Source: an uncultured Actinomycetes bacterium (GTDB lineage Bacteria > Actinomycetota > Thermoleophilia > Miltoncostaeales > Miltoncostaeaceae). From it: 64,000 bases of DNA. This document shows, piece by piece, positions 35,733-41,511 of the stretch. The stretch spans positions 1 through 64,000 of the forward strand of contig CAJAPZ010000072.1 of the NCBI GenBank assembly GCA_903943955.1, written 5' to 3'. Positions within the stretch are counted from its first letter, which is position 1. Every line of letters starts with the position of its first letter. Position numbers and translations under genes: made by a program. The notes under the pieces are model-generated. The model made no database searches, was not told the origin of the DNA, and worked only from the letters and a program-made list of their open reading frames with translations.

Positions 35733-37124
35733 TCAGTGTGCTCCGGGGTCGTCATCGGCTGCGGCCCTCTTGGCCCGCGCCTCGGCCTTGTCGGTGAAGC
35801 CCTCGATGTTCTGCTGCCGGGCACGTGCGATTCCGAGTGCACCGGGGGGAACGTCGCCGGTGATTATGGAGCCTGCCCCGGTCATCGCGCGGTCGCCGAT
35901 GGTGACCGGCGCCACCAGCACACAGTCGCTGCCGGTTTTCACGTCGCTGCCCACCGTGGTGCGGTGTTTCCGGAAGCCGTCGTAATTGGCCGTGATGTTG
36001 CCCGCCCCGATGTTGGTGCCACTCCCCACATCGGCATCACCGATGTACGAAAGGTGGGGCACCTTGCTCTTCTCGCCGAGCGTCGTGTTCTTCATTTCCA
36101 CGTAGGTGCCGGCCTTGCTGCCATCGTTCATGGTCACACCCGGGCGCAGATATGCGAACGGCCCCACCTGGCAACCATTGCCCACGGCCGACGACAGCAC
36201 ATGGGCACTCACCACAACGGTGTCGTTACCCACGGATGAATCGACCATCACCACGTCGGGGCCGATCTCGCACCCCTCCCCCACGCTGGTCGCGCCACGC
36301 AGCACCGTGCCGGGCCACAGCGTGGTGTCCTGACCCACGGTGACGAATGCGTCAACAAGCACGCGGGATGGGTCGGGCATCGTCACCCCGCCCAGCATCA
36401 ACTCGTTGCGAAGTCGTGCCTGGATCGCGGCCTCGCAGTCAGCCAGGTCGGCACGGGTGTTGACGCCCTGCACCACCGTGGCGTCGGGAGCCACCAGCGC
36501 CCCCACTTCGCCTGTCACCAGCGCGAGGGTATCCGGCAGGTAGATCTCGCCCTGTGCGTTGTCGCTGCCCACCTGAGCAATGGCGGTGTCGAGCGCGGCG
36601 CGGTCGAATGCGAACAAGCCCGCGTTGATCTCGCGCACCGCAAGATCGTCGGGATGCGCGTCGCGCGCCTCCACCACCCGCACGCCCGTGGGCTCACGGA
36701 TAACCCGGCCGTAGGCGCCACCGTCGGGAAGGATGGCGGTGACCATGGTGGCCGCACGGCCACTGTGCACGTGATCGCTGATGAGCGCGCTCACCAGCTC
36801 CGGATCCACCAGCGGAGTGTCACCGCATATGACCACCACGGTGTCCACCGCCGGGTCGAGGGCCTCGAGCCCGATACGCGTGGCACCGCCAGTGCCATCG
36901 CGCACCTCCTGAAGCGCCGTGCACATGCCGGCCGGAAGTGACTCGACGACCTCGTCACCCTCGGGGCCGAGCACCACCACCACCGAGGCCGGATCGACGT
37001 CACCGAGCGCGTCGAGCACCCACATGATCATGGGCCTGCCAGCGATCGGGTGGAGGACCTTCGGGAGGCGAGAACGCATGCGGGTTCCGTGACCCGCGGC
37101 AAGTACGACTGCGCCGACGCTCAT
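35733..37124 (-). CDS. glmU: Bifunctional GlcNAc-1-P uridyltransferase / GlcN-1-P acetyltransferase
   Basis: It makes UDP-GlcNAc for peptidoglycan. The 463-aa protein has an N-terminal nucleotidyltransferase domain (about 1-230) with LAAGHGTRMRSRLPKVLHPI and CGDTPLV, and a C-terminal left-handed beta-helix (about 255-440) with catalytic-site sequence YLRPG, GTYVEMKN, SYIGDADVG, GAGNITANYDG and KHRTTVG. The Lys/Ala-rich tail is acidic at the very end. It is upstream of prs. Confidence 0.98.
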   Translation of the reverse strand: MSVGAVVLAAGHGTRMRSRLPKVLHPIAGRPMIMWVLDALGDVDPASVVVVLGPEGDEVVESLPAGMCTALQEVRDGTGGATRIGLEALDPAVDTVVVICGDTPLVDPELVSALISDHVHSGRAATMVTAILPDGGAYGRVIREPTGVRVVEARDAHPDDLAVREINAGLFAFDRAALDTAIAQVGSDNAQGEIYLPDTLALVTGEVGALVAPDATVVQGVNTRADLADCEAAIQARLRNELMLGGVTMPDPSRVLVDAFVTVGQDTTLWPGTVLRGATSVGEGCEIGPDVVMVDSSVGNDTVVVSAHVLSSAVGNGCQVGPFAYLRPGVTMNDGSKAGTYVEMKNTTLGEKSKVPHLSYIGDADVGSGTNIGAGNITANYDGFRKHRTTVGSDVKTGSDCVLVAPVTIGDRAMTGAGSIITGDVPPGALGIARARQQNIEGFTDKAEARAKRAAADDDPGAH

Positions 37125-37147
37125 CTCGCTGGCCTGTGTTGTGTGCC

Positions 37148-37221
37148 TGGTTGGGGCGGGAGGATTCGAACCCCCGATCGCGGGACCAAAACCCGCAGCC
37201 TTACCGCTTGGCTACGCCCCA
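37148..37221 (-). tRNA. tRNA-Gln (anticodon TTG), CCA encoded
   Basis: Read on the minus strand, the acceptor stem TGGGGCG (37221-37215) pairs with CGCCCCA (37158-37152). The D arm is GCC...GGC. The anticodon stem GCGGG/CCCGC holds loop TTTTGGT with anticodon TTG. The T arm is GGGGG-TTCGAAT-CCTCC. Discriminator A is at 37151 and CCA at 37150-37148. It sits between glmU and the second MFS gene. Confidence 0.95.
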
Positions 37222-37295
37222 GCGCGCCTCCCGGAGAGGCCGCGGTGGACTGTACCAACACTCTCGGCCCCCACCCCGGGCCGCGGCGACGGACC

Positions 37296-38561
37296 TCAGG
37301 TGGTTGACGCGTGCGAGGTCGGAAGCCAACCGCGACGGAACGCCACGACCCCAACCAACGCGAGCGTGAGCGCCATTGCCCCGGCCACGAGTTGGATCCA
37401 CCACACCGGCAGCACATCGGCAAGTGCGCCCTCAACCAGAGTGGTCACCGTTGCTGCGGCCATTGCCGAGAACGTGATGGCTGCGATGGCGACGGTTCGC
37501 TCCGCTCCGGGAGCACTCACCTGCACAACCGCCAGCAACTTGTCACCGGCTGCGAAGCTGCCCAGAAAGGCTAGGCACACCGCAAGCGAGAGCAAGAGGA
37601 CGCCGGGCACGCCCTGCTGTCCCGTGGCGCCCACAACCCCGGTGAGCAGCAGTCCCAGTGCGAGCACCACAATGGCCCCCACCACAACGCCCGGGCGCTG
37701 TCGCCGCGCGTTGAGCCGCGCGAGGAGCGGCATGGTCAACACCATGCCGAACCCGGATGCGGCCGACACGATGCCGTAATAGGTGGCTGAGGTCCCAACG
37801 CCATTTGCCAGCTTCGTGAGAAGCGAAGTGGGGATTGAGAGCGCCACGACAGCGAGATCGAGCAGGATTCCAAGACGAAGCACCCGCGTACCGAACAAGT
37901 CGGCAAGTGCCGCCGCCATGTGGGGCCTGGGTTCGCCCGACGGTGTGCCCGCGGCCCGATCGGGCAATCGCAGCAGCACCCACAGCAGGGGCAGGTAGCT
38001 CAGCACATTGGCGAAGAGCAGCCAGGTGGGGCCCGTCGCGGCCAGCACTGCACCACCCACGATCGCCCCGATTACCGCCGCCGCTGAGTACCGCGACCCG
38101 ATGAAGGCATTGGCAGCTGAGACGCCGCGCTCGGGCGAGAGATCCTGCAGCACGTGGTAGTACGCGGGTTGGGTGGCCCCGGTGACCAGCCCCGTCAGGC
38201 CCATGACCAGAATGATGGATCCAACCGTCAGATTCCCAGTGAGCGACAGCACCCAGGGCAGGACGAAAATTAGAGCCTTGAGCACAACCTGAAGAACAAC
38301 CACACGGCGGTGGTCGAATCGCGCCGACACTGCGGGGCTGACGAATGACGCCAGCATGTAGAGGACCATGTACGCCGCGCTCACGTACGCGGCGTCTGCC
38401 GCGCTCCCCTGGCTGCTGAACGCCACAAAGAAGAGCGCCAGTGTGGATCCGGTGCTGCCGAGCCCCGACAGGAACTCGGCAACGCCCATTCGCCGCACCT
38501 CGGGCGCCACGTGACGTGCCCCAGGTAGCTGACCGAACCGGAAATGCGCCCGTTTCACCAC
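37296..38561 (-). CDS. MFS transporter, exporter type
   Basis: The 421-aa protein has 12 predicted membrane segments. The layout, with SARFDHRRVVVLQVVLK after segment 2, GATQPAYYHVLQDLSPERG before segment 5 and ANAFIGSRYSAAAVIGAIVGG, resembles the MFS_3 group of drug and siderophore exporters. Substrate is unknown. Two GTG codons begin the frame (38561, 38558) with no clear SD. The 3' end is next to tRNA-Gln. Confidence 0.85.
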   Translation of the reverse strand: MVKRAHFRFGQLPGARHVAPEVRRMGVAEFLSGLGSTGSTLALFFVAFSSQGSAADAAYVSAAYMVLYMLASFVSPAVSARFDHRRVVVLQVVLKALIFVLPWVLSLTGNLTVGSIILVMGLTGLVTGATQPAYYHVLQDLSPERGVSAANAFIGSRYSAAAVIGAIVGGAVLAATGPTWLLFANVLSYLPLLWVLLRLPDRAAGTPSGEPRPHMAAALADLFGTRVLRLGILLDLAVVALSIPTSLLTKLANGVGTSATYYGIVSAASGFGMVLTMPLLARLNARRQRPGVVVGAIVVLALGLLLTGVVGATGQQGVPGVLLLSLAVCLAFLGSFAAGDKLLAVVQVSAPGAERTVAIAAITFSAMAAATVTTLVEGALADVLPVWWIQLVAGAMALTLALVGVVAFRRGWLPTSHASTT

Positions 38562-38582
38562 CGGGGAGGTGGACTCGCGTCG

Positions 38583-40289
38583 CTAAAGATTTGGCAGCGT
38601 GACCGCTCCCTCGCTGGCAGACGACACCAGCGTGGCGTACTTGGCAAGCACGCCGGTGCGGTAGTTGGGCTCGGGGCGCGTCCACGATCCGAGGCGCGAG
38701 GCGATCTCCTCGTCGCTCAGTTCCACGTTCAACTCGCGCTTCTCCACGTCGAGCACAATGATGTCGCCCTCGCGGATGACGGCGATGGGACCCCCGCGAT
38801 ACGCCTCGGGAGCCACGTGACCCACCATCAGGCCATGGGTGGCGCCGCTGAAGCGGCCGTCGGTGATGAGCGCCACATCGTCACCGATGCCCTCGCCCAC
38901 GATGGCGGCCGTGACGTGCAGCATCTCGCGCATTCCGGGGCCACCGGCGGGGCCCTCGTAGCGGATGACCACCACATCGCCCTCCTTGATGGCACCGGCC
39001 TTGACCGCGGCGAAGGCCTCTTCCTCGCGGTCGAAGATACGGGCGGGGCCGCGGTGCAGCAGGCGCTCATGGCCGGCCAGTTTGACCACCGAACCCTCGG
39101 GCGACAGGTTGCCGCGCAGGATCGCGAGGCCACCGGTGGCCTTCAGTGGCGTCTCAATGGGCACAACCACGTCCTGCCCCGGGGCCTCCTTGACGTCGGC
39201 AGCGATCTGGGCCAGCGTGCGGCCATCCACGGTGGGAGCATCGCCGTCGATCTTCCCCTGCTTGAGCAGTTCGCGCATCACCAAACCGGGGCCGCCGGCG
39301 TTGTACAGATCAACCGCCACGTAGCGGCCACCCGGCTTGATGTCGGCCACGATGGGTGTGCGTTCGGCGATGGTGTCGAATTCGTCGATGGTGAACGGCA
39401 CGTCGAACTCACGCGCAATGGCCAGGATGTGCATGACGGCGTTGGTGGAACCACCCGTGGCGGCGACCGAGGCCACCGCGTTGTCGATGGCGCGGCGGTC
39501 AACGATGTCGCGCGGCATCAGGCCGTCGCGCACCAGCTTCATGATCATCTTTCCGGCATCTTCGGCAGCCGAGCCCTTCGCAGGGTCGGTGGCGGGAATG
39601 CCGTTCAGGTCGACCGGGGACAGGCCCAAGAACTCCGACACCATGGCCATGGTGTTGGCGGTGAACTGGCCGCCGCAGGCGCCAGCGCCCGGGCAGGCGG
39701 CGTTCTCGATACGCAGCAGTTCGTCGTCGTCGATCGTGCCCTTGTTGTGGGCACCAATGCCCTCGAACACATCCTGCACCGTCATATCGCGGTTGTCGTA
39801 GCGCCCGGCGGCAATGGAGCCGTTGTAGAGCACCAGACCCGGAATACCCAGACGGCCGAGCGCCATGATGGCCCCCGGAATCGTCTTGTCGCATCCCACC
39901 AGCATCACCACGGCGTCAAACGAGTGGCCCATGCAGGCGAGCTCGATGGAGTCGGCGATGATCTCGCGGCTCACCAGCGAACCCTTCATGCCCTCGGTGC
40001 CCATGGACACACCGTCCGACACCGAGATGGTGTTGAACTCCATGGGGGTTCCGCCAGCCTTCTGGATGCCTACCTTCACGTGCTTGGCCAGATCGCGCTG
40101 GTTGATGTTGCACGGCATGGTCTCGATCCATGTCGTGCCCACGCCGATGATTGGCTTGGCCAGTGCGGCGTCGTCAAAGCCAATGGCCTTGAGCATGGCG
40201 CGGGCCGCGGCACGGTCGGCACCGTCGGTCATCGCGGCGCTCTTGCGCTTGGCGGGGTCTGAAGGCTGCTGGTACGGGTTCGTCGTCAT
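38583..40289 (-). CDS. ilvD: Dihydroxy-acid dehydratase
   Basis: It forms the 2-keto acid precursors of valine, leucine and isoleucine. The 568-aa protein has the Fe-S ligands in MPCNINQ, VGCDKTIPG and GACGGQFTANTM, with the ITDGRFSGATHG signature near the C-terminus. Length is standard. ATG 40289 is preceded seven bases upstream by TAGAGT, whose TAG is the stop codon of the alpha/beta hydrolase gene, so ilvD probably has its own leaderless promoter embedded in the end of that gene. Confidence 0.97.
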   Translation of the reverse strand: MTTNPYQQPSDPAKRKSAAMTDGADRAAARAMLKAIGFDDAALAKPIIGVGTTWIETMPCNINQRDLAKHVKVGIQKAGGTPMEFNTISVSDGVSMGTEGMKGSLVSREIIADSIELACMGHSFDAVVMLVGCDKTIPGAIMALGRLGIPGLVLYNGSIAAGRYDNRDMTVQDVFEGIGAHNKGTIDDDELLRIENAACPGAGACGGQFTANTMAMVSEFLGLSPVDLNGIPATDPAKGSAAEDAGKMIMKLVRDGLMPRDIVDRRAIDNAVASVAATGGSTNAVMHILAIAREFDVPFTIDEFDTIAERTPIVADIKPGGRYVAVDLYNAGGPGLVMRELLKQGKIDGDAPTVDGRTLAQIAADVKEAPGQDVVVPIETPLKATGGLAILRGNLSPEGSVVKLAGHERLLHRGPARIFDREEEAFAAVKAGAIKEGDVVVIRYEGPAGGPGMREMLHVTAAIVGEGIGDDVALITDGRFSGATHGLMVGHVAPEAYRGGPIAVIREGDIIVLDVEKRELNVELSDEEIASRLGSWTRPEPNYRTGVLAKYATLVSSASEGAVTLPNL

Positions 40290-40296
40290 GGCCGGC

Positions 40297-40302
40297 ACTC
40301 TA
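40297..40302 (-). promoter_or_regulatory. Putative -10 box (TAGAGT) of leaderless ilvD
   Basis: TAGAGT on the minus strand lies seven bases before ATG 40289. Its first three bases are also the stop codon of the upstream hydrolase gene. Confidence 0.5.
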
Positions 40303-40932
40303 ATTGGTGGGGGCCAAAAGAACGCGGGCCAAAAAGTCACCAAGGTGATCTGACACCTCTCCCGCGCGATCGCGCAGGGAGTGGTCGGAACCGGGAATGA
40401 CCGCAAGCTCACCGCCGCCGATCGCCTGCAGCCAGTCGGCCAGCACCTGGGGCTCGGTGATGTGGTCATTCTCGGGGTGCGCGATGGCGATGGGGCGGCC
40501 GTCGAGGGTGACGGGCATCGACGCGCCCGGAGCCACCAACGCAATGGCCAGCACCCGGGGATCGCCCGCAGCCACGTTTACGGCACTCCAGGCACCAAAT
40601 GAATACCCGGCGAGTGCGAGCGGAGTACCTGGCGGCAGCGCATCCTCCAGCGCATCGAGGGCGCGAGTGACGTCGCTCCACTCCGCCGTGCTGCCCTGAG
40701 ACTCGCCCTGGCTCTCGCCTGCACCGCGGAAGTCGAAACTGAGCGCGGCCATACCCCGGTCGACGAATGCCCGCACCAGCGCCCGCACGATGTGCGACTG
40801 CCTCGTGCCGCCGTACGCAGGGTGGGGATGGCACACCACCACGCCCGCCACCGGTGCCCCGAGATCGGGCCGGGTGATGTCGGCCGCAAGCGCCGGGCCA
40901 TCGCCCCCGATCGTGAGGAACTCGGTGATCAC
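40300..40932 (-). CDS. Alpha/beta hydrolase, dienelactone-hydrolase-like
   Basis: The 210-aa protein has the oxyanion region VVVCHPHPAYGGT, FDFRGAGESQG, nucleophile motif GYSFG (Ser), and the late His in IPGSDHSLRD, with Asp/Glu in AHPENDHI. This arrangement matches the short alpha/beta hydrolases (COG2945-like) of unknown substrate. GTG 40932 overlaps the stop of the preceding 99-aa gene (GTGA), so the two are coupled. Confidence 0.88.
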   Translation of the reverse strand: MITEFLTIGGDGPALAADITRPDLGAPVAGVVVCHPHPAYGGTRQSHIVRALVRAFVDRGMAALSFDFRGAGESQGESQGSTAEWSDVTRALDALEDALPPGTPLALAGYSFGAWSAVNVAAGDPRVLAIALVAPGASMPVTLDGRPIAIAHPENDHITEPQVLADWLQAIGGGELAVIPGSDHSLRDRAGEVSDHLGDFLARVLLAPTN

Positions 40933-41228
40933 GCCTGCTCGATCACCACGATGTCGAGCACGATGGCCACCGTCTTGTCGGAGGTCTCGATGCTCTCAGG
41001 CGACACAACCTCCTGCGTGTCGCCACGGCAGTCGATGCGCACGATCTGCCCCTCCTCAATCACATCTACCAAGCGGTCGGCCAATTCGCCCGTCACCTCA
41101 AAGGTGTTGAGCTCAAGCGGCACGGTGGTGTCGAGGGTGATGAGCAGGACCCGGCCCCGGTACGGGTGCTGGTCTTCGAACATCATGGCGATTTCGCCGG
41201 TGAATGAGCGGTGCTTGTGGGACGTCAC
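40929..41228 (-). CDS. 99-aa protein of unknown function
   Basis: Not recognised. It is a small beta-rich soluble protein: RGRVLLITLDTTVPLELN, FEVTGELADRLVDVIEEG, QIVRIDCRGDTQEVV and TVAIVLDIVVIE. GTG 41228 starts it, eight bases after TAGAGT. The start is part of an inverted repeat shared with the divergent gene, and the first two codons are the same in both genes. It is coupled to the hydrolase gene. Confidence 0.65.
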   Translation of the reverse strand: MTSHKHRSFTGEIAMMFEDQHPYRGRVLLITLDTTVPLELNTFEVTGELADRLVDVIEEGQIVRIDCRGDTQEVVSPESIETSDKTVAIVLDIVVIEQA

Positions 41229-41258
41229 GGGCGGGAACTCTATCCTCCCTCCCGTGAC
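41224..41258. promoter_or_regulatory. Symmetric divergent leaderless promoter
   Basis: GTCACGGG (41224-41231) and CCCGTGAC (41251-41258) are a perfect inverted repeat containing both GTG start codons. Between them lie TATCCT (41241-41246, plus) and TAGAGT (41237-41242, minus), sharing two bases. Spacing to the starts is seven and eight. Both genes would be leaderless and transcribed from back-to-back -10 boxes. Confidence 0.55.
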
Positions 41259-41511
41259 GGACACACCGACACCTCTGACCCCCAAGAGCTACCTGCTGCT
41301 CGGGCCGCCCGACATTCTTCACGACCTGCTGAACGAGTTCGCCGCGGATGGTTGGTACTGCTCGGCCGATCGCTGGAAAGCCGTGGTCACTGCACCGCCC
41401 GAGGATGCCGGGGGGGCCGACCCCGGATGGCCAGTGGAGGTGTCGCTTCAGGGCATCTCCCGGTCGGGCCACGAGGCGGCCTGTCGGGAGCATCTGGCCC
41501 CGATGGAGTAA
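41254..41511 (+). CDS. 85-aa protein of unknown function
   Basis: Not recognised. The protein starts at GTG 41254. Sequence such as KSYLLLGPPDILHDLLNEF, ADGWYCSADRWKAVVTA and WPVEVSLQGISRSGHEAAC suggests a compact soluble alpha/beta fold. It is leaderless by the divergent promoter described. It converges with the aquaporin-family gene, 14 bases apart. Confidence 0.65.
   Translation: MTDTPTPLTPKSYLLLGPPDILHDLLNEFAADGWYCSADRWKAVVTAPPEDAGGADPGWPVEVSLQGISRSGHEAACREHLAPME

Follow-up and report, generated by a model that had tools for sequence, protein, structure and literature searches.

The start codons of two small divergent genes, P0001 and P0002, lie so close together in the genome of an uncultured actinobacterium that the question arises of what the few bases between them do. 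An earlier note on this DNA, a window of 64,000 nucleotides, described a divergent promoter in which the -10 boxes TAGAGT and TATCCT share two bases, and placed it in a perfect inverted repeat holding both start codons. Re-reading of positions 41224-41258 found all its letters and coordinates correct (Table 1). Our comparison of related genomes indicates that the stretch is, in all likelihood, a bidirectional, leaderless promoter.

Table 1. Features of the divergent start region, its surroundings and the other gene pairs with the same layout. Positions are those of the window unless a locus label is given.
Feature	Position	Strand	Remarks
P0001 start codon, GTG	41228 to 41226	minus	99 aa
P0002 start codon, GTG	41254-41256	plus	85 aa
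Putative shared promoter core, ACTCTATCCT	41237-41246	top-strand reading	two TANNNT -10 elements overlapping in one TA step
-10 element TAGAGT (P0001)	41242 to 41237	minus	8 nt before GTG 41228
-10 element TATCCT (P0002)	41241-41246	plus	7 nt before GTG 41254
8-nt repeat arm, GTCACGGG	41224-41231		
8-nt repeat arm, CCCGTGAC	41251-41258		
Imperfect inverted repeat	41223-41259	none	13/14 of arms paired, 9-nt loop; judged non-functional as a unit
P0001, 99 aa	40929-41228	minus	modelled as an SSB-like OB fold; heads an apparent operon
P0002, 85 aa	41254-41511	plus	orphan, alpha/beta model; a convergent aquaporin gene comes next
Long membrane-protein-like frame	37296-38561		
tRNA-Gln	37148-37221		
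Choloylglycine-hydrolase-like / ABC-F-type ATPase			divergent pair, shared TA
SUI1 / PHP			divergent pair, shared TA
Leu/Phe-tRNA transferase / HemB			divergent pair, shared TA
HisC-like aminotransferase / LON-domain protein	L224:9756-9782		divergent pair, shared TA; relatives L233-L247

Results

Conservation of the core and of its distance to the starts

The divergent pair is present in 31-32 of the 42 genomes of the family Miltoncostaeaceae (P0001 homologues in 32, P0002 in 31). Among 249 genomes sampled from the class Thermoleophilia, P0002 was confined to this family and P0001 gave one weak match outside it. The core and its spacing were compared in the 17 genomes of the source genus that carry both genes; because these genomes are related, the counts are not independent, and the 17 contain 14 distinct 28-mers. 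The core ACTCTATCCT is identical in 15 of them. A single change in G036 gives TAAAGT, which retains the TANNNT form, and in G028 the plus box is lost and the plus start has moved. Both TANNNT hexamers, overlapping on opposite strands as in a bidirectional promoter, are formed in 16 of the 17 congeners, and the same number have TATCCT for the plus gene. On the minus side the distance from the -10 element to the start is 8 nt in every genome (17/17); on the plus side it is 7 nt in 15 genomes and 8 nt in G026, and G028 has lost it. At one and the same position, the plus gene starts with ATG in some genomes and with GTG in others. The core carries on average 1.84 bits of information per column, compared with 1.42 for the left spacer and 0.92 for the right one; even the NNN bases of the two boxes hardly vary. 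This conservation within the genus supports the divergent promoter with overlapping boxes, for which the earlier note had suggested looking for the same symmetric spacer in relatives.

Elsewhere in the family the minus box reads TAGAGT in genera g2, g5, g6 and g11, TAGACT in g12 and TAGGAT in g10. TATCCT is peculiar to the source genus, and the minus box alone persists in these six other genera. At a guess, g2, g5 and g6 (eight genomes) could represent the 18-bp class of bidirectional promoters, with NACTCT opposed to TAGAGT, an assignment that several of the spacings fit, not all.

Recurrence of the layout in the genome

In a 674-kb (0.67-Mb) sample of the source genome, TANNNT occurs 34, 38, 10 and 13 times at 6, 7, 8 and 9 nt upstream of candidate start codons, and about twice per position elsewhere; leaderless mRNAs are therefore to be expected in this organism. 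The spacings at P0001 and P0002 both fall within this range of about 6-9 nt.

Two TANNNT hexamers on opposite strands that share their TA step read as A...TA...T, a pattern that occurs 55 times in 1.22 Mb of the source genome. Five of these 55 sites sit 6-8 nt from divergent starts with a coding-like open frame of 60 aa or more to either side, compared with 4 of 5,149 occurrences, between divergent starts, of ten control patterns matched in spacing and A/T content. At the wrong distances, 0-4 or 11-15 nt from such starts, A...TA...T was not found once in the 1.22 Mb. The paired arrangement of -10 boxes at starts is far beyond chance.

Four other gene pairs share the layout (Table 1). Of the 15 genus genomes read, 14 retain the shared-TA core AGGCTACACT between the starts of the HisC-like/LON-domain pair; G026 has the plus box alone. 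Since the layout recurs at these four pairs and is conserved at one of them, it is a recurrent, conserved device with no single function attached.

Simply counting the -10 pairs at each offset also gave seemingly striking figures, which were set aside as an unfair measure: sharing the TA lowers the number of fixed bases by two, which is why the composition-matched control is the fair test. A...TA...T itself (55 occurrences) is 3- to 15-fold rarer in the 1.22 Mb than the ten composition-matched patterns (178-855), a scarcity that suggests selection against stray TANNNT boxes.

The inverted repeat

The inverted repeat is longer than the earlier note had stated, with 14-nt arms at 41223-41236 and 41246-41259 that are complementary at 13 of 14 positions. 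Among repeats it stands out only a little. Arm pairs of equal quality with loops of 3-30 nt number five in the window and zero to three in Markov-shuffled windows, so the repeat taken alone is weak evidence. The 8-nt arms pair at 8/8 positions in the source genome only, and at 2-7/8 in the other genomes of the genus; in G025, where both proteins are identical to those of the source, one arm pair is already broken. Pairing of the flanks about the common centre averages 7.88 of 13 positions within genomes and 7.77 of 13 between genomes, so that the arms show no covariation. The conserved, covarying arms of a palindromic operator were not found in the genus genomes. The letters of the perfect repeat were right, and its mirror symmetry is private to the source genome; its role as a functional part, whether as operator or as hairpin, was rejected.

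The symmetry around the core is mostly coincidence, since it can be traced to two start codons that are themselves nearly symmetric, to the frequency of GTG-AC at starts, and to spacers that are G-rich and then C-rich. The identical first two codons that had also been pointed out are real (GTG ACG, V-T, in both proteins); they reflect how common GTG-ACG is as a start, and relatives do not share them.

The two genes and their neighbours

Searches of Pfam, NCBIfam and PDB sequences gave nothing significant on the function of either protein. P0001 is modelled (pLDDT 84) as a small, beta-rich fold, for which SSB proteins are the best structural matches in the PDB (Foldseek E 2.9e-4, TM 0.64, 13% identity). 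P0001 matched no SSB sequence profile and no Pfam or NCBIfam family, so that its description cannot go beyond a predicted SSB-like OB fold. For P0002, the fold search returned no significant structural match (best E 0.056).

Downstream of P0001, the source genus has an alpha/beta hydrolase gene and then IlvD, and in the source genome the hydrolase (GTG 40932) overlaps P0001 by 4 nt. The hydrolase and IlvD pair was not detected after P0001 in the other genera checked, where GlmU and ribose-phosphate pyrophosphokinase genes come next. In the window (35733-41228, minus), the hydrolase, IlvD, a membrane-protein-like frame and tRNA-Gln lie between P0001 and GlmU. Across genera the divergence of P0001 and P0002 alone is constant while the downstream genes vary, which suggests a functional link between the two genes or a linkage enforced by their shared promoter.

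Discussion

Our results indicate that the 10-base core very probably holds the polymerase sites of both genes, and that both messages probably start at, or adjoining, the start codons. A housekeeping-type RNA polymerase would recognise TAGAGT or TATCCT, and one polymerase could bind in either orientation because the two boxes share a self-complementary TA step (41241-41242). The analysis brought no -35 element to light. Transcripts that begin about 7-9 nt from each box would start on, or 1-2 nt before, each GTG; for this reason both mRNAs are predicted to have little or no 5' UTR and no Shine-Dalgarno site. They would be translated as leaderless messages, a class whose 5' ends lie no more than 5 nt from the start codon. 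P0001, probably together with the hydrolase and IlvD, would be carried on the minus message, and P0002 on the plus message. By our own calculation, canonical starts 7 nt from each box are predicted at 41230 and 41253, 23 bp apart; starts on the first base of each GTG would be 26 bp apart.

Bidirectional promoters have been defined by divergent starts 7-25 bp apart (PMC10268837), with preferred distances of 18, 10 and 23 bp (PMC12825309). The P0001/P0002 region resembles those described by Warman, Grainger and colleagues in E. coli and other prokaryotes (PMC12825309, PMC10268837) in that -10 hexamers of the two strands overlap within one short element, and its shared-TA geometry, with the canonical starts predicted here, matches the 23-bp class of E. 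coli. If initiation occurs at the start codons, however, the distance of 26 bp departs from that class and would exceed the 7-25 bp definition by one. Unlike in E. coli, the mRNAs predicted in the two directions are both leaderless, and the start codons would therefore bound the element. In Mycobacterium tuberculosis, promoters contain TANNNT and roughly one gene in four is leaderless; closely juxtaposed divergent promoters are known, and both mRNAs of the divergent pair prpD/Rv1129c are leaderless (PMC3898074). The region is similar to those leaderless promoters in having TANNNT shortly before the start, in the use of both ATG and GTG and in the lack of a conserved -35 element (PMC3898074), and may differ from them in that its two -10 elements overlap.

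The overlap of the boxes had led the earlier note to suggest that polymerase could serve one direction at a time and that the two genes are probably mutually exclusive or co-tuned. In a mutually exclusive switch, a polymerase working in one direction would block the other, and the genes would be expressed alternately. Two polymerases cannot, on steric grounds, occupy overlapping -10 boxes together (PMC12825309), which speaks for such a switch. However, the basal activity of the five E. coli bidirectional promoters tested was too weak for RNA polymerase competition, and interference was seen only when one direction was strongly activated (PMC12825309). Because the E. coli counterparts compete only under activation, the shared promoter is supported and mutual exclusion is not. 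The layout also serves unrelated housekeeping pairs, Leu/Phe-tRNA transferase/HemB and HisC-like/LON domain, with no obvious reason to alternate, and we consider a switch highly unlikely.

It is slightly less credible still that the core is the operator of a regulator repressing or tuning both genes, with the inverted repeat as its binding site. The position of the core within the repeat and the near invariance of the NNN bases would fit an operator; the unconserved arms, pairing no better within genomes than between them, do not, and the exact core has no second copy in 1.22 Mb and is hence no regulon site. What is conserved fits two TANNNT boxes at leaderless spacing. Least probable of all is that independent promoters lie nearby inside the opposite genes, the shared TA being a coincidence of dense packing. 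The starts are predicted ones, and an in-frame TTG upstream of the minus start, at 41285, leaves room for such an arrangement, against which stand the invariance of core and spacing across the genus and the enrichment of the layout in the source genome.

A bidirectional, leaderless promoter between P0001 and P0002 would be of a known kind, and the region a new, well-conserved example of it. It would extend bidirectional -10 promoters, studied mainly in enterobacteria, to an uncultured actinobacterial family, and join them with leaderless translation. More tentatively, and with less than even confidence, we propose that in this actinobacterial lineage the shared-TA, double-leaderless element (start, 6-8 nt, a core like ACTCTATCCT, 6-8 nt, start) may be a recurrent, selected unit that fuses the promoters and translation starts of two genes in about 32 bp and locks the pair together in the long term. 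Because the layout recurs, one can test whether sharing a promoter holds two genes together, and the fixed distance from -10 element to start is a strong comparative criterion for the annotation of start codons.

Other arrangements of divergent boxes occur in the same genome. The window holds another divergent pair (43413, minus, and 43455, plus), made up of a DsbA-like gene and one encoding a trehalase-like N-terminal domain; its TANNNT boxes lie 7 and 6 nt from the starts and do not overlap. At L065:3254-3275, the start codons of a metallophosphoesterase gene and a SPOUT methyltransferase (RlmH-like) gene are 21 bp apart and the -10 boxes overlap fully, matching the expectation for the 18-bp class.
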